Of a stretch of 64,000 nt of DNA, positions 11,286 through 48,383 are shown one piece after another (positions within the stretch are counted from its first letter, which is position 1; every line of letters begins with the position of its first letter). The notes beneath the pieces were generated by a model that ran no database searches, was not told the origin of the DNA, and saw only the letters and a program-made list of their open reading frames with translations. Source of the DNA: Flavobacterium sp. WC2421 (GTDB lineage: Bacteria; Bacteroidota; Bacteroidia; Flavobacteriales; Flavobacteriaceae). Where the stretch lies: assembly GCF_040822115.1 (NCBI RefSeq), contig NZ_CP162004.1, positions 3,643,001-3,707,000 on the forward strand, given 5' to 3'. The position numbers and the translations under genes are program-made.

Positions 11286-11356
11286 CAAAGTTTAGTGTTT
11301 GTTGTTCTAAATTACTGCAACTGAAAATGCAATTATGAAAAATAGACGGTATAGAT

Positions 11357-11416
11357 AGCCCCGATAGCAATGGAAATCCCACGCTTTTTTGCGTGGATTG
11401 CAATGGATAGCGGGAC
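11357..11416 (+). repeat. Dispersed hairpin repeat, copy 1
   Basis: Starts AGCCCCGATAGCAATGG and ends GCAATGGATAGCGGGAC, with an inner stem (CACGC, TTTTTT loop, GCGTG). The same outer blocks recur at 48289-48383, and a related form occurs at 36600-36710. It lies between divergent NDH-2 and sigma-factor genes, so it cannot be a simple terminator of either. Confidence 0.75.
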
Positions 11417-11505
11417 AAGACTTTATTGTAATTCAAATCATGGTGCTACAAAATAAAAAAGCGGTACTTTGTAACAAAATCTAAATTTAGATTACTAACG
11501 TATAT

Positions 11506-35350: not shown

Positions 35351-36532
35351 ATGAAATTTAAACTTTTAATTTTAGTGTTTTTTGGAGTATTAAATACCCA
35401 AGCTCAAAACACAAAAAAAGCCGTTACTACAAAAAAAACAGCTGTATCTACAACAAAAGCAGTTGTTAAAGCACCCGTTGCTATTGAAGGAATTTTTGCA
35501 ACGATTGCAACAAATAAGGGAGATATTACCCTGCAACTAGAATACCAAAAAGCGCCCATTACAGTGGCTAATTTCATTTCACTTGCGGAAGGAAAAAATG
35601 CTTTTGTAACTGATGAAAAATTAAAGGGAAAACCATTTTTTGACGGTTTAAAATTCCATAGAGTAATTAGTAATTTCATGATTCAAACTGGAGACCCAAC
35701 TGGAAGTGGTGCCGGTGGAACTGGATATGCGTTCAAAGATGAATTTACCGATTTAAAGTTTGACAAAGGCGGTGTTTTAGCCATGGCTAATTCTGGTCCA
35801 GCAACAAATTCGAGTCAATTTTTCATAACGCACAAAGACACACCCTGGTTAAATGGCAAGCACACCATTTTTGGTCATGTAACTCAAGGAATGGATATTG
35901 TTAATAGTATTGCTCAAGAGGATGTAATTACTAAAGTGACTATTACACGAAAAGGAGCTGCTGCTAAATATTTTGATACATCAAAAGTATTTGCTAACTA
36001 CTATGAAAACAAAGCAGAGGATGCAAAAAAACAAGCTTTAATTGAAGCCGAAAAAGTAAAAGCTACTAATGAAAAGTATGCAGGCGTAATTGCGGCTAAA
36101 GTAGCCTACCTTGCTGCTGCCAAAGCAACTGCTACCACTACTCCATCTGGTTTGACTTATAAAATCATACAAAAAGGGACAGGAGTAAAACCAGTTGATG
36201 GCAGTACATTCTACTTCCATTATGCCGGTTATTTTGAAGATGGAACTTTATTTGACAGCAGTTATGAAGAAGTAGCCAAAGCATACGGAAAATATGATGC
36301 CAATAGAGCCGCACAAAACGGATACGCCGCCTTTCCTTTCCAAGCAGGGAAAAAAGACGGAATGATCCCAGGTTTCTTAGAGGGATTAAGCGTAATGTCT
36401 TATGGTGACAAAGCAATACTTTTCATCCCTTCTAACTTAGCTTATGGAGAAAGCGGTGCTGGTGGCGTTATACCTCCCAATGCCACTTTAATTTTCGAAT
36501 TAGAAATGTTTGAAAAACAACCTACAAAATAA
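35351..36532 (+). CDS. Cyclophilin-FKBP fusion peptidyl-prolyl isomerase, secreted paralogue
   Basis: A 393-residue paralogue of the preceding gene with the same domain order. It has a cleavable signal peptide (1-18, ending LNTQAQ) rather than a lipobox, then a Lys/Thr/Val-rich linker. The cyclophilin domain (about 47-210) has FHRVISNFMIQTGDP, and the FKBP domain (about 275-393) has FYFHYAGYFEDGTLFDSS and LAYGESGAGGVIPPN. It is therefore probably a soluble periplasmic isomerase working beside the lipid-anchored copy. A strong terminator follows. Confidence 0.93.
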   Translation: MKFKLLILVFFGVLNTQAQNTKKAVTTKKTAVSTTKAVVKAPVAIEGIFATIATNKGDITLQLEYQKAPITVANFISLAEGKNAFVTDEKLKGKPFFDGLKFHRVISNFMIQTGDPTGSGAGGTGYAFKDEFTDLKFDKGGVLAMANSGPATNSSQFFITHKDTPWLNGKHTIFGHVTQGMDIVNSIAQEDVITKVTITRKGAAAKYFDTSKVFANYYENKAEDAKKQALIEAEKVKATNEKYAGVIAAKVAYLAAAKATATTTPSGLTYKIIQKGTGVKPVDGSTFYFHYAGYFEDGTLFDSSYEEVAKAYGKYDANRAAQNGYAAFPFQAGKKDGMIPGFLEGLSVMSYGDKAILFIPSNLAYGESGAGGVIPPNATLIFELEMFEKQPTK

Positions 36533-36599: not shown

Positions 36600-36710
36600 G
36601 GGCATGCCCCAGCTTCCACTCCTTTCCAGCAGGGTCGGGCTGTACGTTATAATCTTTTATTACACTACGTTCCATAAAAGGATTTCCACTTCCATCCCTC
36701 ATGCAACCCC
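36600..36710 (-). repeat. Dispersed hairpin repeat, copy 3 (related form)
   Basis: Read on the minus strand it contains GGGATGGAAGTGGAAATCC, an inner stem-loop (TTTTAT with ATAAAA) and then GTACAGCCCGACC, ending near GGGGCATGCCC. The GGAAATCC block and the spacing match copy 1 at 11357-11416, and the overall plan matches copy 2. It separates the isomerase operon from the cassette island. A minus-strand reading frame here (36442-36702) runs across the terminator and is not a gene. Confidence 0.6.
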
Positions 36711-36878
36711 ACGATAAAGAAATACACTAGAAAATCAACACCCCTATTCACCTCTCTTTTAATAAGAGCCATTTAAATAATAATCAGTCACTTCAATCGT
36801 TTAGTTAGTAAGAAAAAACTGCGTTTACCTTAAAAAATCCTTAAAAGATGTATATATTTGATGTTGCTGTGAATATTC
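36711..36878. other. Gap before the cassette island; one promoter element
   Basis: AT-rich and without a reading frame. The only signal is TATATTTG at 36853-36860, an exact -7 match pointing right toward the repeated small ORF and the first cassette. No integrase gene or attI-like site is recognisable. Confidence 0.5.
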
Positions 36879-37079
36879 TTGCCGAATTTTGCGCTGAAAA
36901 ATCAGAATAAAATCGTGAAACAGAAAATATTTTGGTTGAATTTAAGTGATGCAGTTTGCGTCCAAATGGATTGTAGCGAAATCGTTAAACAGAAAGGAAT
37001 TCGCTTCAATAATACTGATGCAGTTTGCGGCGAAATGTATTGCGGTGAAAAAAAGAAATGCGAAAAGAATGATTATTAA
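36879..37079 (+). CDS. Possible small repeat protein built from two 69-bp units
   Basis: A 66-codon frame with no in-frame ATG near its beginning; only TTG at 36879 is available. It contains two imperfect direct repeats of exactly 69 bp (36911-36979 and 36980-37048), each encoding 23 residues: IVKQK, about seven variable residues, then a Cys-containing block such as DAVCVQMDCSE or DAVCGEMYCGE. The 69-bp period keeps the frame, and the Cys positions repeat. This may be a short Cys-rich protein, a degraded gene, or noncoding repeat DNA. Low confidence that it is translated. Confidence 0.3.
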   Translation: MPNFALKNQNKIVKQKIFWLNLSDAVCVQMDCSEIVKQKGIRFNNTDAVCGEMYCGEKKKCEKNDY

Positions 37080-37090
37080 TGAAACACACA

Positions 37091-37206
37091 CAGCAACAAT
37101 CATTTTGAGCTAGCTGGAGTTTAGTGCAATTACCGATTCGCATTATATTTTTTGCAAAGCCGAAAATTAAAAGATTACGAATCTCAAAGCAGCGAAACTT
37201 TGGCAG
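37091..37206 (+). other. attC-like recombination site A (degenerate)
   Basis: The left arm (CAACAATCATTTTGAGCTAG) is nearly the same as that of site B, and CTCAAA near 37185 is the remnant of the right arm. The expected crossover falls at about 37199, followed by TTTGGCAGTAATATTACC, which resembles the cassette starts at 39682 and 40337 (TTGTGAGTAATGCAACC, TTGGGCGTAATGCTACC). It is the weakest of the sites. Confidence 0.45.
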
Positions 37207-37239
37207 TAATATTACCTATCAAAAAACAGGAAATTCCGT

Positions 37240-37791
37240 ATGAAAAGACAATTATTTATTATGTTCATTTTGACACTTTTAATATCTTGTGCAAAAAAAG
37301 AAAAAGATTTTGACTCTTTCGAGTATTCGTTTGGTGGAACTTTCTCAACTCTATTTTCAATAAAATTCACAGAAAACGACACGATTTATTTAAGAGAACA
37401 TTGGAATGTCTCAGAAAGATATGGGAAAAAATTTCCAAAAGCTAAAACAAATTATTATGCAATACTTACAAAAGAACAAAGAAATCAATTACGTGAATTA
37501 TTAAAAAAAATAGATTTTAAAAAAATAAAATCAGAATATAATCAAGATTATGTTGACGGAAGTGCATATCAAATAATTATAAAAAAAGATACTTTTAAAA
37601 AAAGTGTTTTTGTTCACAGTCATAAAGTTCCCAAAGAATTAGATTCTCTTTCAAGGTGGATTTATAGGACAAAAGAAAATTTAAAACTAATTGAGACGAG
37701 TAAAAATTTTGATTTTGCAAGTATTAATGGAATTTTACCGCCGCCTCCACCGCTGCCTCCAATAAAGAAAATAATATTAAATGAAAAATAA
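37240..37791 (+). CDS. Hypothetical lipoprotein in cassette
   Basis: A 183-residue lipoprotein with leader MFILTLLISCAKK (lipobox Cys about residue 17). The mature part is rich in Lys, Phe and Asp and has an LTKEQRNQLRELLKKIDFKK helix. It ends in a Pro-rich tail (ILPPPPPLPPIKK). I recognise no family. It lies alone between attC-like sites A and B, on the same strand as all other cassette genes, which is the usual layout of an integron gene cassette. The function is unknown. Confidence 0.7.
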   Translation: MKRQLFIMFILTLLISCAKKEKDFDSFEYSFGGTFSTLFSIKFTENDTIYLREHWNVSERYGKKFPKAKTNYYAILTKEQRNQLRELLKKIDFKKIKSEYNQDYVDGSAYQIIIKKDTFKKSVFVHSHKVPKELDSLSRWIYRTKENLKLIETSKNFDFASINGILPPPPPLPPIKKIILNEK

Positions 37792-37794
37792 ATA

Positions 37795-37922
37795 CTCACA
37801 GCAACAACCATTTTGAGCTAGCTGGAATTTAGTGGAATTATCGTTTCGCATCAAGTTTTCGTTAAGCAGAAAATTGAGCGGTTACGAACTTCCAGCCATC
37901 TCAAAGTGGCAAAACGTTATGC
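37795..37922 (+). other. attC-like recombination site B
   Basis: An imperfect palindrome with arms CCATTTTGAGCTAGCTGGAA (left, 37808-37827) and TTCCAGCCATCTCAAAGTGG (right, 37890-37909). The interior is a smaller stem-loop (AGTTTTC with GAAAATT). The right end reads AAAACGTTATGC, with the putative G/TT crossover at 37916. Confidence 0.65.
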
Positions 37923-37945
37923 ATCATTTAAAAAGACGACAGTAA

Positions 37946-38848
37946 TTGAAAAGACGACCTCTATATATTGAAACCAAAATAAAATGTGACTTTGACACTT
38001 TGTGGACGAATACGCAAGAACCTTCTATTCATCAACAATGGGACTTACGGTTTACAGAGATTGAATACTTACCAAAAAATGACCCGACAGACCCGCAAAA
38101 ATTTCTATACTCAACAAAAGTTGGCTTGGGAATTAAGGTAGACGGAATCGGAGAAAGCGTTGCGACTAAAACCAAAGACAACGGGGAAAGCACATCAGTT
38201 TTAAAATTTTCATCAGACAGTAAAATTTCATTAATCAAACAAGGTTCAGGCTATTGGAAATATGTTCCTGAAGCAGACGGAATAAAATTTTTTACAGGTT
38301 ATGACTATGAAACACGTTGGGGACTTTTCGGAAAAATCATTGACAAATTTGTTTTCAGACCATTAATGATTTGGGCAACTGCTTGGAGTTTTGATTGCCT
38401 GAAAAATTGGATTGAAAAAGGACTTCACCCAAAGCAAGCTTTAAATGCTCAAATTTCTGTTTTGCTTGTGAATTTAACTTTAGGAATTATTTGGATTTAT
38501 CAGGGACTAATTCCAAAAATACTTTTTACTGACACAGGTGAAATTGAAATATTAAGACAATCAGGGTTATTTAATGGAAACGAAGACAATATTTTGACCA
38601 TCATAGGAATTGCGGAAATTGCTTTTGGAGTTGCATTGATTTTTATTCATAGAAAAGTTCTTCAGTATTTAAATATATTAGGACTGTGTCTTCTCTCAGT
38701 TGGAGCAATTTTTAGCGACTTGATGATTTTTACACTTCCATTTAACCCATTTTCGCTAAACATATCAATGATAGCTCTTTCGATAATAGCAATTTTGAAT
38801 TTCAGCAATTTACCAAAGGCTTCAAATTGTATCACAAAACAGAAATAA
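37946..38848 (+). CDS. SRPBCC-domain protein fused to DoxX-like membrane domain
   Basis: A 300-residue protein with two parts. Residues about 5-155 form an SRPBCC (START/Bet v1-like) ligand-binding domain (PLYIETKIKCDFDTLWTNTQ, IHQQWDLRFTEIEYLP, GSGYWKYVPEADGIKF). Residues about 165-295 contain four hydrophobic helices resembling DoxX-like proteins. The start is TTG at 37946, as no upstream ATG exists. The stop overlaps the ATG of the next gene (TAATG at 38846-38850), so the two genes are coupled and travel in one cassette. The product is probably an inner-membrane protein with a cytosolic lipid- or ligand-binding part; function unknown. Confidence 0.8.
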   Translation: MKRRPLYIETKIKCDFDTLWTNTQEPSIHQQWDLRFTEIEYLPKNDPTDPQKFLYSTKVGLGIKVDGIGESVATKTKDNGESTSVLKFSSDSKISLIKQGSGYWKYVPEADGIKFFTGYDYETRWGLFGKIIDKFVFRPLMIWATAWSFDCLKNWIEKGLHPKQALNAQISVLLVNLTLGIIWIYQGLIPKILFTDTGEIEILRQSGLFNGNEDNILTIIGIAEIAFGVALIFIHRKVLQYLNILGLCLLSVGAIFSDLMIFTLPFNPFSLNISMIALSIIAILNFSNLPKASNCITKQK

Positions 38849-39531
38849 TGAAATCAATATACCAACAAGTTTTAGGTTCGGACTTTGACAAACTTCATCC
38901 ACAGATTCAAAAGCGTTTTGGCTTCAACAGCAATGACAAAATTGCCTCGATTGGAAAAGGAGTTATGCAAAGTGTTTGGTATGGAAAACCATATACACTT
39001 CCGTTTCTATACATTGGGACATGGAGAAACATTATGTTTCCGCAGAAAGGAAAAGATATTCCTTTCACAATTGAAAACTACGCATATAAAGACAAATTTG
39101 GAAGAGAAACCGTTACTTGGGTTCGTAAATATCAATTCCCAAAGCGAGTAAGAAGATTTGACGCAACAATGATTTACAGCGAACAGAGAAATAGAATTGT
39201 TGATTACTTGGGCACACATCAACATCTTGCAGTTGACATTGAAATGACTGTGGCGGAAAACGGTGGTATAAAATTACGGTCAGGTGAACAAAGATTTTAT
39301 GAAGGTTTTTTAGACTTTAAATTTCCAATGCTATTTTCAGGTGAAGCGAACGTTTGTGAATGGTATGACGATAAAGAGCAAAAATTTAAAATCTCTGTAG
39401 TGGTAAGAAACAAAACTTGGGGAAAATTATTCGGCTATGAAGGAACTTTTGAGACTGAATACATAACCGTGAATTCAAAAGCGGACATACCAAAAGACGT
39501 TTTGCCAGTAAGAGAAGAAATAAGAGAATAG
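38848..39531 (+). CDS. DUF4166 domain-containing protein
   Basis: A 227-residue protein of the DUF4166 family. It begins MKSIYQQVLGSDFDKLHPQI, and its C-terminal half has SGEANVCEWYDDKEQKFKIS and VVRNKTWGKLFGYEGTF. I use the ATG at 38848, which overlaps the upstream stop, instead of an earlier one inside that gene. DUF4166 is often encoded next to, or fused with, DoxX-like or SDR proteins, which fits the coupled gene upstream. The two genes form one cassette bounded by sites B and C. Confidence 0.85.
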   Translation: MKSIYQQVLGSDFDKLHPQIQKRFGFNSNDKIASIGKGVMQSVWYGKPYTLPFLYIGTWRNIMFPQKGKDIPFTIENYAYKDKFGRETVTWVRKYQFPKRVRRFDATMIYSEQRNRIVDYLGTHQHLAVDIEMTVAENGGIKLRSGEQRFYEGFLDFKFPMLFSGEANVCEWYDDKEQKFKISVVVRNKTWGKLFGYEGTFETEYITVNSKADIPKDVLPVREEIRE

Positions 39532-39554
39532 AATGAAAATAGAAAGAAAAACGC

Positions 39555-39687
39555 CCTATAACAGCACCTACCCAAAAGTGGCGGTTCAGTGGTTAAATCA
39601 AGCTTTGTGCTTCTATCAAAGTTTCTGCTTGGTTGACAGTGAAGTGCTTCGAAATCGCCACCTTCGGGTAGCTGCAAACCGTTGTGA
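39555..39687 (+). other. attC-like recombination site C
   Basis: The left arm AGCACCTACCCAAAAGTGGC (from 39563) pairs with the right arm GCCACCTTCGGGTAGCTGC (ending 39675), with a few mismatches and the bulges expected of attC. The outer ends read CTATAAC (39556-39562) and G/TTGTGAG (39681). The interior is unstructured, about 80 bases. Confidence 0.75.
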
Positions 39688-39722
39688 GTAATGCAACCGT
39701 TAAAAAGAAACTTCTGTCTTTA

Positions 39723-40199
39723 ATGAAAAAATTAAACTTGAAACTTATACTAATTCAATTGTTAGGGATTTTCTTTTTTATTGAAGGAATTCAGAAAATT
39801 TATATCGCATCTGACGCTGAAAGATTTATGTGTTTACTGAAGTATGACGTAAACTCAGAATGCTGGAAAAATTTAAATTCAACTTTCACAACTCTTGGAG
39901 ATTTTTTAGCTAAAAGAGCATATTGGAGTTTTGGTGCATTCGTAATTGGAATATTAATTATTTCATTGATTAACTTGAAAAATAAAAAACCTTTTCTGAA
40001 TACATTATTTGTATTCTTACTTGCATTTTTAATTTTCCCAACTGGTATTTTTTTTCGTGGAAAAATAAGTGACTATTTCAACTATTTCGGCGCTTTATTC
40101 ACTAAAGATTATCAATACTCATTTATTATCAGTGGAATTATTTTTACTCTAATTGGAAGTCTACTAATGTGGAAAAGTTACCGAATTGAAACCGTATAA
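39723..40199 (+). CDS. Hypothetical membrane protein in cassette
   Basis: A 158-residue protein with four hydrophobic segments (about 7-25, 68-87, 96-114, 131-150). A loop with two Cys (FMCLLKYDVNSECWKN) lies between the first two. The ATG at 39723 is chosen. An alternative GTG at 39684 lies inside the crossover sequence of site C and would add 13 residues. The topology resembles DoxX-like proteins but I cannot assign a family. It is the only gene of its cassette. Confidence 0.7.
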   Translation: MKKLNLKLILIQLLGIFFFIEGIQKIYIASDAERFMCLLKYDVNSECWKNLNSTFTTLGDFLAKRAYWSFGAFVIGILIISLINLKNKKPFLNTLFVFLLAFLIFPTGIFFRGKISDYFNYFGALFTKDYQYSFIISGIIFTLIGSLLMWKSYRIETV

Positions 40200-40208
40200 T
40201 ATGCACTA

Positions 40209-40342
40209 CTCACAACAGCCACTACAACGGATTTGGGCATTTGACTTAATGGAAAAATGGTCTTGTATTTGGGATGATTTGGCAAATCCGAAAATAGGGC
40301 TTAATTTAGTCCCAAACCCGCTGTAGTGCCAAGACGTTGGGC
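40209..40342 (+). other. attC-like recombination site D
   Basis: The left arm CCACTACAACGGATTTGGG (from 40219) pairs with CCCAAACCCGCTGTAGTGCC (ending 40330) over about 18 bp. The outer ends are CTCACAAC (40209-40216) and G/TTGGGCG (40336). CTCACAAC is the exact reverse complement of GTTGTGAG at the start of the same cassette (39681). Confidence 0.8.
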
Positions 40343-40387
40343 GTAATGCTACCAGCAAGTGTGCAAACATTAATAGTCAGACAAAAA

Positions 40388-41077
40388 ATGAACGAAAACG
40401 ACACAAAACGACTTTCACGACTGACTGCAATTTTGACCCAACTGCAAACAAGACGACTTACCACTTCAACAAGTCTTGCTGACAGATTCAATGTTAGCGT
40501 AAGGACAATTTACCGAGACATTAGAGCATTAGAACAGGCAGGAGTTCCAATCATAACAGAAGAAGGAAAAGGATATTCTTTAATGGAAGGCTACAAAATT
40601 CCACCAGTTATGTTTACAGAAAGCCAAGCCAATGCTTTAATTCTTGCCGAAAAATTGGTTCTAAAAAGTAAAGACTCTTCTTTTATAAAAGATTATACCG
40701 AAGCAATTGAAAAAATAAAATCTGTCTTGAATTATACTGTAAAAGACAGAGTAAATCTGCTTTCCGACAGAACCATATCAGGCGAAAATCTTGAAAAACT
40801 AATAAACAGCAACAATTTATCTCATTTGCAACTTGCTATAACCAACCTTGATTTAACGGAAATTGATTATACAAATGAAAGTGGCAAATCAACAAAAAGA
40901 ATCATTGAGCCATTTGCACTGATAAGAACAGAAAATTGGTTGCTAATTGCTTGGTGTCGTTTACGGCAAGAATTCAGATTTTTCCGTTTGGATAGAATTA
41001 CAAAAACGCAAGTCCTTTCAGAGAAATTTGAACAACATAAAATGACTTTACAAGAATATTTTGATAAATTTCACTAA
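40388..41077 (+). CDS. YafY-type HTH-WYL transcriptional regulator
   Basis: A 229-residue DNA-binding regulator. An N-terminal HTH_11 domain (SLADRFNVSVRTIYRDIRAL, about 29-48) is followed by a WYL ligand-binding domain (about 130-225, IEPFALIRTENWLLIAWCRL). WYL proteins respond to small ligands or nucleic acids. The start is the ATG at 40388, because the upstream extension runs into the attC-like site. The next gene, 83 bases downstream in the same cassette, encodes a VOC protein and is the likely target of this regulator. Confidence 0.9.
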   Translation: MNENDTKRLSRLTAILTQLQTRRLTTSTSLADRFNVSVRTIYRDIRALEQAGVPIITEEGKGYSLMEGYKIPPVMFTESQANALILAEKLVLKSKDSSFIKDYTEAIEKIKSVLNYTVKDRVNLLSDRTISGENLEKLINSNNLSHLQLAITNLDLTEIDYTNESGKSTKRIIEPFALIRTENWLLIAWCRLRQEFRFFRLDRITKTQVLSEKFEQHKMTLQEYFDKFH

Positions 41078-41160
41078 CATATTTTGACCCCTGACATAAG
41101 GCTGTCACTTAACCATTTTACATTTGCATCATAAACTTTTTAAAAAAATAAAAATAAACT

Positions 41161-41580
41161 ATGAGCGTTCAAACAACACCACATTTCAACTTTCGCGGCG
41201 AAGCTCGCACAGCACTAGAATTTTATCACTCAATTTTTGGCGGAAAGATTAGTATTGCTACGTATGCCGATATTAATGCAGTTGAGGATCCTTCACAAAC
41301 AAATTTAGTTGCTTTTGGCGATGTCAAAGCTCCAAATGGTTTTCACATTATGGGTTACGATGTACAACCTTCCAAAGCTTTCGACAAAGGTATAAATCCT
41401 TTCTATGTAACCCTTCACAGTACTGAACCGGAAGAAATTAAAAAAGGTTGGGAAGCTCTTGCTAAAAATGCGAAGGCTATTCTAATTCCTTTCGGTCCTG
41501 CGCCTTTTGCACCACTATACGGAATGCTGACTGACCAGTTCGGAGTTACTTGGATTGTCGGTTTAGTCCCCGAAGATTAA
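41161..41580 (+). CDS. VOC family protein (PhnB/glyoxalase-like)
   Basis: A 139-residue vicinal-oxygen-chelate fold protein of the PhnB/3-demethylubiquinone methyltransferase-like group. Paired beta-alpha-beta modules begin TPHFNFRGEARTALEFYHSI and end FGPAPFAPLYGMLTDQFGVT. Such proteins are isomerases, dioxygenases or antibiotic-binding proteins; the substrate here is unknown. It is the last gene of the cassette island and follows a WYL regulator that may control it. Confidence 0.9.
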   Translation: MSVQTTPHFNFRGEARTALEFYHSIFGGKISIATYADINAVEDPSQTNLVAFGDVKAPNGFHIMGYDVQPSKAFDKGINPFYVTLHSTEPEEIKKGWEALAKNAKAILIPFGPAPFAPLYGMLTDQFGVTWIVGLVPED

Positions 41581-41868
41581 AATAATAACGTTATTTAGTC
41601 ATTATTTAATAATGTTAATAGTATATAAATTTATTGAAAGCATAAATTGACAAAAAGAAAGCACTACGCCCAACAGCCGTTTCTCGCAATTGCGAATTTT
41701 GTGGAAAGTTCACGTTCACGTTTCGTAGAAATATTATCTTAGGGAAAATTAGTTATTTATTTTATAATGCAAACTAAAGGCGAAATGTCCATCAAATTGT
41801 AAAATACTTGCAGACTTACATATTTAAAAACTGATTTTTCTCCAGTTAACAGAACATTCTTTAAATGT
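41581..41868 (+). other. Terminal half attC-like site E and gap to the next terminator
   Basis: GCACTACGCCCAAC at 41661-41674 is the reverse complement, 13 of 14, of the cassette start at 40336-40349. It is followed by a left arm (AACAGCCGTTTCTCGCAATT), but no matching right arm or G/TT end follows. The array therefore ends with a broken site. The rest of the gap shows no gene. Confidence 0.65.
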
Positions 41869-48274: not shown

Positions 48275-48288
48275 GATATTTATTTTTT

Positions 48289-48383
48289 AGCCCCGATAGT
48301 AGCGGCATCTCCCGATTTAGAAAAACAAGGCTTTTTAGCCTTAGTTTTTATTATCGGGAATACAGCGGATAGCGGGATTAGCT
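48289..48383 (+). repeat. Dispersed hairpin repeat, copy 2
   Basis: Outer blocks AGCCCCGATAGTAGCGGCAT and CAGCGGATAGCGGGATTAGC match copy 1. The interior is a long stem: TCCCGAT with ATCGGGA, then AAGGCT-TTTT-AGCCTT. It sits between two leftward genes (purM upstream, hypothetical downstream), so it could terminate or process their mRNA. Confidence 0.75.

Follow-up and report, generated by a model that had tools for sequence, protein, structure and literature searches.

Integrons and the Flavobacterium locus

Integrons of the IntI type have an attI site beside a tyrosine recombinase gene, tandem gene cassettes and imperfect palindromic attC sites, with the R' and R'' boxes borne by the cassette. 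The cassette enters as a circle that is cut between G and TT. In the integrons of Treponema, integrase and cassettes lie on one strand. The IntI layout, with exchange predicted at the same bases, recurs in the genome of Flavobacterium sp. WC2421, where a 64-kb stretch of contig NZ_CP162004.1 carries what is very probably an orphan cassette array, belonging to an integron system that Flavobacterium shares with some of its relatives. Such arrays are called CALIN (clusters of attC sites lacking an integrase). The whole 64-kb stretch is referred to here as the window, and positions are window coordinates unless the contig is named.

The system departs from IntI integrons in several respects. Its recombinases lack the additional domain of ~41 residues found in IntI and carry an N-terminal extension instead, integrase and array share a strand in those arrays of Flavobacterium that were read, the R'' box is GTTR, and one kind of attI, that of a recombinase of 347 amino acids (aa), is a folding region of ~100 nucleotides (nt). 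The shared orientation is that of the Treponema integrons. As in a CALIN, a term from IntegronFinder, at least two attC-like sites lie less than 4 kb apart with no integrase nearby. Unlike a CALIN, the array was detected with a model built here and not with that of IntegronFinder, and there is a truncated attI at its left.

Bacteroidota appear among the integron-bearing phyla in the accessible portions of several reviews (PMC8618304, PMC9668308, PMC2426708), and the claim made here is therefore one of an integron variant, not of the first integron in the phylum. In the accessible text on IntegronFinder 2.0, one complete integron in Bacteroidetes proper (Salinibacter) is named from 22,301 chromosomes, and the absence of integrons from some large clades is called intriguing (PMC9024848). 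The definition of CALIN used here is taken from the sections available of PMC9668308, according to which the additional domain is also how IntegronFinder tells IntI. That domain is called "essential", though not fully conserved in an 'integron-like' subgroup of tyrosine recombinases, in the available part of Smyshlyaev et al. (PMC8138268), which describes no attC arrays beside members without it. The portion available of PMC9892861 has no passage on Bacteroidetes. No description of this kind of Flavobacterium integron was found in the open PMC literature, as far as its texts were accessible (closed journals and preprints lay outside the search).

The attC-like sites

A gene for a peptidyl-prolyl isomerase (35351-36532) and one on the reverse strand (41.9-42.4 kb) enclose six genes, all on the plus strand, and five imperfect palindromes (sites A to E). 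The palindromes were sought with R1, a covariance model built from 47 attC-like sites of other genomes, with the window and the rest of its own genome excluded. (The training sites were first picked by a script requiring AAC and GTT or GTC ends, so these ends are present by construction.) On the plus strand of the window, R1 returned below E 1 exactly the five sites (E 4e-19 to 6e-4) that a first-pass annotation, made from the sequence letters, had placed there. Up to E 10 there are eight hits, the other three at E 1.2 to 9.1. Sites B (37797-37923, 87.3 bits, E 1.1e-17), C (39554-39688, 93.5 bits, E 4.4e-19) and D (40208-40343, 68.7 bits, E 1.7e-13), all on the plus strand, are complete; the first-pass annotation had proposed a search for at least three significant attC hits, and with the model built here these three were obtained. 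Site A (37089-37206, plus strand, 33.1 bits, E 2.1e-5) is degenerate, with a T at 37199 instead of the crossover G. Site E (41666-41791, plus strand, 26.8 bits, E 5.5e-4) has an attC R' box and L' arm, and no L'' arm or R'' box was seen; it reads as a left half-site, whose L' arm is the same as in complete sites of two other genomes (L099/G142 and L100/G135). The attC layout originally proposed for all five thus holds in full for B, C and D only.

Over 18 sources (272 kb), R1 gave 29 hits at E up to 1, which are divided among L020 (13), L157 (nine), the window (five) and L022 (two). Eleven of the 13 hits in L020 are strong, one is clipped by the end of the stretch, and one is the opposite strand of a site. 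The remaining 14 sources (L021, L023 and the 12 synteny loci L145-L156) had no hit up to E 1. A further site of 103 bits lies elsewhere in the same genome (G000:C1:3480747-3480873, plus strand), and solitary R1 sites also exist there, for example one in L160.

The co-variation of the arms, likewise noted at first pass, is borne out by the 47 training sites. Their 16-pair stem is paired in 95.5% of cells, compared with 62.3% after shuffling and 27.5-43.4% when the arms are slid; the covariation score is 0.752 (0.154 shuffled), and 15 of the 16 pairs show changes on both sides. The stem also has a fixed asymmetry, with A opposite C in 46 of 47 sites and T opposite G in 41, and these conserved mismatches may stand in for the extrahelical bases that known attC sites have. 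In the R'' box, the position following GTTR is A or G in only 23 of the 47.

Cassette ends

Because the circle is cut between G and TT, a cassette should start with bases complementary to the R' box that lies at its opposite end. This relation was examined in 124 cassettes, sampled from arrays of the WC2421 genome (window included), 16 further genomes and seven GTDB loci. In 103 of them, the first 8 nt are identical to the reverse complement of the R' in that same cassette, and at the six variable positions a mean of 5.60 agree, compared with 2.37 under shuffled pairing (200 shuffles, maximum 2.69). For the R' and R'' of a single site, the mean agreement is only 2.45 of six. A second set of 49 neighbor pairs located by R1, overlapping array L020 in part and extending beyond the genus and into viral contigs, gave a mean of 5.14 of six versus 2.48, with 39 pairs perfect; both pairs in the viral contig L221 agree at six of six. 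The identity between cassette start and own R' is the mark of insertion at G^TT. In the window, the rule is kept at 8/8 by cassette 3 (39682-40336), which starts with TTGTGAGT, identical to the reverse complement of the R' that it carries, and by cassette 4, which starts at 40337 with TTGGGCGT, complementary to its own R' (ACGCCCAA). Cassette 2 agrees at two of six variable positions, and cassette 1 shows no agreement.

An insertion element with a 512-aa transposase is found at the attC crossover point (AACG/TCAGG...TGACG/TT, slashes marking the element's ends) and may target attC. In L020 (minus strand), three left and three right ends occur in the main array of the WC2421 genome, and one left end each is present in two other genomes (L087 and L097/L037). 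Two cassettes in L158 that miss the end rule start with TCAG, resembling, though not identical to, the left end of this element.

The integron platform and attI

Where is the integrase? As the first-pass annotation had stated, there is none in the window: none of the 10 PF00589 matches in the genome falls inside it. The genome consists of one contig of 3.83 Mb, and ~1 Mb from the window array, at contig positions 2617878-2619629 on the minus strand, is the gene for a 584-aa tyrosine recombinase, with its reading frame open. Soon after the stop codon comes an intact attI, AAAGATGTATATATTTGATGTTATATACAAG^TT, and then a same-strand array with at least 11 strong R1 sites, also on that strand, in the 20 kb read. 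The first-pass annotation had proposed looking for an IntI recombinase elsewhere in the genome; a complete integron is present, with a recombinase that is not of the IntI type.

A 22-nt sequence from this attI has two exact copies in the 3.83 Mb, one at contig 2617839-2617860 (minus strand) and the other at 36844-36865 (plus strand) in the window, to the left of the array. The window copy, which the first-pass annotation had not seen, is truncated, the terminal ATATACAAG^TT being absent. The reversed attI pattern has zero matches in the 3.83 Mb at up to three mismatches. The idea that the promoter-like match TATATTTG alone explains this remnant was rejected, since a like match exists in L159 with no attI end and no R1 hit nearby.

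Of 21 related loci with the long (584-aa-type) integrase in GTDB, 20 were read (all except L038), and in 19 an attI follows the stop codon; L054 has no attI of this kind there. In these 19 and the WC2421 genome (G000), conservation is 0.9 or more at 27 of the 33 positions that immediately precede TT, and beyond the TT it drops to 0.85, 0.6, 0.5 and 0.35. The attI of the short (347-aa) type was cut out at 18 of 20 loci, and all 18 end in AG^TT (one was cut at the wrong place by the script, and its true end is seen in the alignment). The promoter-like TAnnTTTG, which we take to be the Bacteroidetes -7 box, is present in 20/20 long-type and 16/18 short-type attI. Orphan copies of attI in the WC2421 genome, with no integrase in the stretch read, are found in L158, together with nine strong R1 sites and a weak one, and in L160, with one site; L022 has a C-terminal remnant of a 347-aa-type integrase with one strong and one weak site. 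The short-type attI (L162-L180) is ~100 nt long and folds strongly (mean z -5.7), with inverted arms that vary among species yet still fold. Classical attI sites are, to our knowledge, not palindromic.

A platform of this kind would consist of a tyrosine recombinase gene, an attI right after its stop codon, and same-strand cassettes that each end in an imperfect palindrome of ~110-140 nt serving as attC. The recombinase would bind the folded attC and exchange strands at G^TT, cassettes would be freed as circles and inserted at attI, and the promoter-like motif in attI could drive the first cassettes. The 584-aa recombinase might act in trans on sites B to D of the window, 1 Mb away. Since the window array is remote from the integrase and has a truncated attI on one side and half an attC on the other, it would represent a displaced or decayed segment.

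Insertion at the locus

Judged by sequence comparison, the window array is an island inserted relative to related genomes. The two flanking genes are 79-145 bp apart (between match ends) in six measured relatives, compared with 5.4 kb in the window, and they are also close together in five more loci (L151, L153, L154, L156 and L157); in L155, the second flanking gene was not found. The comparison with sister strains proposed at first pass thus finds the island missing from this locus in relatives. G126 has an integrase gene of the 347-aa type ~440 bp past these two genes, and after it come an attI of its own and an array. Two sites of that array are 97% and 91% identical to site B and one is 92% identical to site D; others reach 80% and 76%. 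In G136 (L152, 1864-10862), a different insertion of 9.7 kb occupies the same gene gap, and three of its genes resemble an efflux operon by eye.

The recombinases

The 347-aa relative in G126 is 46% identical to the 584-aa type over 261 residues. The catalytic lysine loop is separated from the HxLRH motif by 107-116 residues in IntI (15/15 used), whereas the interval is 66 in the 584-aa type (9/9), 65-66 in the 347-aa type (14/14), 59-60 in viral relatives (14/14 used), 71 in XerC and 73 in XerD. The NCBIfam model NF040815 (XerA-type 'site-specific tyrosine recombinase/integron integrase', cut-off 220) gives 211.5-228.2 for the 347-aa type and 188.1 for the 584-aa type. The best relative of solved structure by sequence is IntI4, and the C-terminal SPLD/SPFD motif resembles that of IntI. 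In a first tree (33 rows), IntI is placed beside the long type, with long branches flagged. A second tree (56 rows) leaves out the four phage-type rows of the first, as well as one wrong-frame IntI-like row and one short viral row; of 22 viral recombinase loci, 15 had initially been taken, and of 22 IntI-like loci, 14. This tree separates the recombinases and IntI from two Xer rows (100/99) and groups the long type with IntI (90/83), with the internal order unsettled and the rooting unsure; a constraint placing long and short types together was not rejected (approximately unbiased test, p-AU 0.198).

The ~290 extra N-terminal residues of the 584-aa type are predicted by AlphaFold2 to form three beta-beta-alpha-beta-beta-alpha repeats (mean predicted local distance difference test, pLDDT, 76.5 and 74.8; predicted template modeling score, pTM, 0.34 and 0.45), and the 347-aa type has one such stretch by sequence. 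Matches to a domain of XPB and to the HARP domain of SMARCAL1 recur in fold searches with these repeats and are not significant; the XPB domain is, we take it, the one named the damage-recognition domain. Pfam has no family for the repeats at E 0.01, and for the 347-aa type a match to DUF5710 only at E 0.17. The resemblance to HARP is no more than a lead, and that the modeled repeats might sense the folded site is a guess. Several 347-aa-type matches (L164, L166, L177 and others) contain stop codons or are shortened, and broken integrases of this sort could leave arrays without a working integrase.

Distribution

The genus was surveyed in 299 genomes, with cut-offs of E up to 1e-100 for the 584-aa type, 1e-70 for the 347-aa type and 1e-6 for R1; at most 11 R1 candidates were scored per genome, the E-values are rough, and at least 10 of the genomes had supplied training sites. 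The 584-aa type is present in 28 genomes, the 347-aa type in 140, either type in 167 and R1 sites in 254. Sites occur in 158 of the 167 genomes with either integrase versus 96 of the 132 without (Fisher p 1.6e-7). Among 120 genomes spread over the family, the full-length 584-aa type was found in WC2421 only. Eight further genomes with R1 sites were examined, and in four of them the stretch read contains an integrase relative, placed upstream of the array and sharing its strand: G314 in the genus, G609 in the class, and G487 and G481 in other families of the phylum.

In the phylum, 135 of 296 genomes have R1 sites. IntI above the cut-off was found in 84 of the 296, which restricts the idea that such sites go solely with the new integrases. 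Only one of these belongs to the 73 genomes of the same class (taken by inference to be Bacteroidia, the number being a row count), and that one has no R1 hit; IntI above the cut-off is absent from all 55 genomes of the class that have R1 sites. Related recombinases were also found on 22 viral contigs, and with a limit of E 0.01 R1 has hits on 11 of them. Ten of these 11 resemble classical integrons in having their sites upstream of the integrase gene and on the strand opposite to it (two contigs, L207 and L208, are apparent near-copies). On contigs L203, L204, L205, L207, L208, L212-L215 and L218, the recombinase is ~265 aa long in those read, and many R1 hits are shorter (~97 nt) and on the opposite strand.

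Interpretation of the window array

The integron origin put forward in the first-pass annotation is upheld by the three strong hits of the attC model, the absence of the island from relatives and cassette ends that obey the insertion rule. None of the contrary outcomes it had named (no model hits, the same gene order and spacers in all relatives, or an ordinary repeat family found singly around the genome) was observed; some solitary sites do exist in the genome. At the level of sequence, the sites, their covariation, the end rule, the attI boundary, the inserted island and the absence of the IntI domain are established.

Other observations weigh against this interpretation. Excision, insertion, hairpin recognition, circle formation, action in trans and promoter use are processes that we infer from the anatomy of the loci and from known integrons. 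The window copy may itself be inert, since the end rule fails in two of its four cassettes and the outermost sites, A and E, are both damaged. The first-pass annotation had looked to bottom-strand hairpins with extrahelical bases for further support. When whole sites are folded, the bottom strand is the more stable in 78 of 131 (p 0.002), a weak bias, and when the arms alone are folded there is no strand difference (p 0.14). Viral neighbor pairs are mixed, with 2, 4, 6 and 2 of six in two divergent arrays. The ~41-residue domain of IntI is absent from all 37 recombinases compared (nine long, 14 short, 14 viral), and with TIGR02249 (integron integrase, cut-off 265 bits) the 584-aa type scores 216.2, below the cut-off, as do the other recombinases tested (203.8 and 209.7-211.6), compared with 447.9 for an IntI3 control. 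Finally, sites are also carried by the 96 genomes in which neither integrase was detected at the thresholds used, and the remaining four of the eight further genomes have no relative of either integrase in the stretch read.

Could the palindromes simply be intergenic repeats, of the repetitive extragenic palindromic (REP) or terminator-like kind, with no part in recombination? Some are solitary, as in L160, and neither Rfam nor the weak strand bias gives a positive sign of function. However, a REP family predicts nothing like the exact match of 103 out of 124 cassette starts to the site at their own far end, a match that does not extend to the other box of the site touched, and the arrays follow a recombinase and an attI with a sharp G^TT boundary. 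The cassette-end rule leads us to reject this explanation, which is highly improbable. That the array is an integron remnant now dead, with sites B to D no longer usable by any recombinase in the cell, is a substantial possibility, though not one we would favor: the truncated attI, the missing crossover G of site A, the halved site E and the mismatched ends of cassettes 1 and 2 all fit it, whereas C and D have high scores and the cassette between them shows 8/8 end agreement, and the 584-aa recombinase frame in the genome is open. It is unlikely that the array was left by a 347-aa-type integron lost from this very locus, rather than displaced from a platform of the 584-aa type. G126 has such an integron ~440 bp beyond the same flanks, with sites like B and D, but the truncated attI beside the window array belongs to the 584-aa type, its 22 nt being identical to the attI found elsewhere in the same genome.

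A separate question is the origin of the recombinases. They might be IntI proteins that have secondarily lost the additional domain, with nothing older or separate about them, and the affinity to IntI4, the IntI-like SPLD/SPFD motif and the grouping of the long type with IntI (90/83) would suit such a history. On the other hand, the domain is missing from 37/37 proteins in three groups and from XerC and XerD as well, so that the loss must precede all three groups or recur; with the rooting unsure, we regard secondary loss as possible but rather doubtful. We would also suggest, tentatively, that Bacteroidia may hold an old integron class of their own, whose recombinases never had the IntI domain and would read the folded attC via HARP/XPB-type N-terminal repeats, IntI integrons then being a derived offshoot within a broader family to which phage-borne forms also belong.

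Cassette genes and neighboring features

The gene content and orientation are as described at first pass, apart from an SRPBCC part in the second cassette that Pfam does not show. All cassette genes are on the plus strand. Cassette 1 encodes a DUF6438 lipoprotein (37240-37791), and cassette 2 a DoxX_3 protein (37946-38848) and a DUF4166 protein (38851-39531). The gene of cassette 3 (39684-40199) encodes a 171-aa protein with no Pfam match that is membrane-like by eye. Cassette 4 has an open frame for an HTH_11/WYL regulator (40337-41077, with an ATG at 40390) and a gene for a VOC/3-dmu-9_3-mt protein (41161-41580). A search of the other loci studied for the window cassette proteins gave two weak matches, and in neither case is it clear that the cassette is the same.

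Two tandem 69-nt copies, 75% alike (36910-37047, plus strand; repeat family D2), lie in the interval from the attI remnant to site A and are perhaps decayed sequence. A Flavo-1 RNA (Rfam RF01705, 57.5 bits) lies at 36629-36706 on the minus strand, and an Rfam scan of 36.5-42 kb at E up to 1 found nothing besides it. In this genome, Flavo-1 is also found upstream of the two orphan attI sites, in L158 (4798-4897) and L160 (4185-4290), and upstream of the long integrase, in L009 (3055-3128). Copies occur away from attI and integrase too (window 11353-11421 and 48285-48383; L160 2395-2537), so the association may be due to chance.

Evolutionary implications

The integron system looks common in Flavobacterium, and its recombinase seems to do without a part long held essential. 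Because sites were found in 254 and recombinases in 167 of the 299 genus genomes, the scarcity of integrons in this group may partly reflect a gap in detection. If the recombinases work, the additional domain of IntI would be dispensable for attC recombination, and the recognition of folded sites would become testable by comparison. In that case, environmental bacteria, and perhaps phages as well, would also harbor a large stock of mobile genes that has so far escaped notice.

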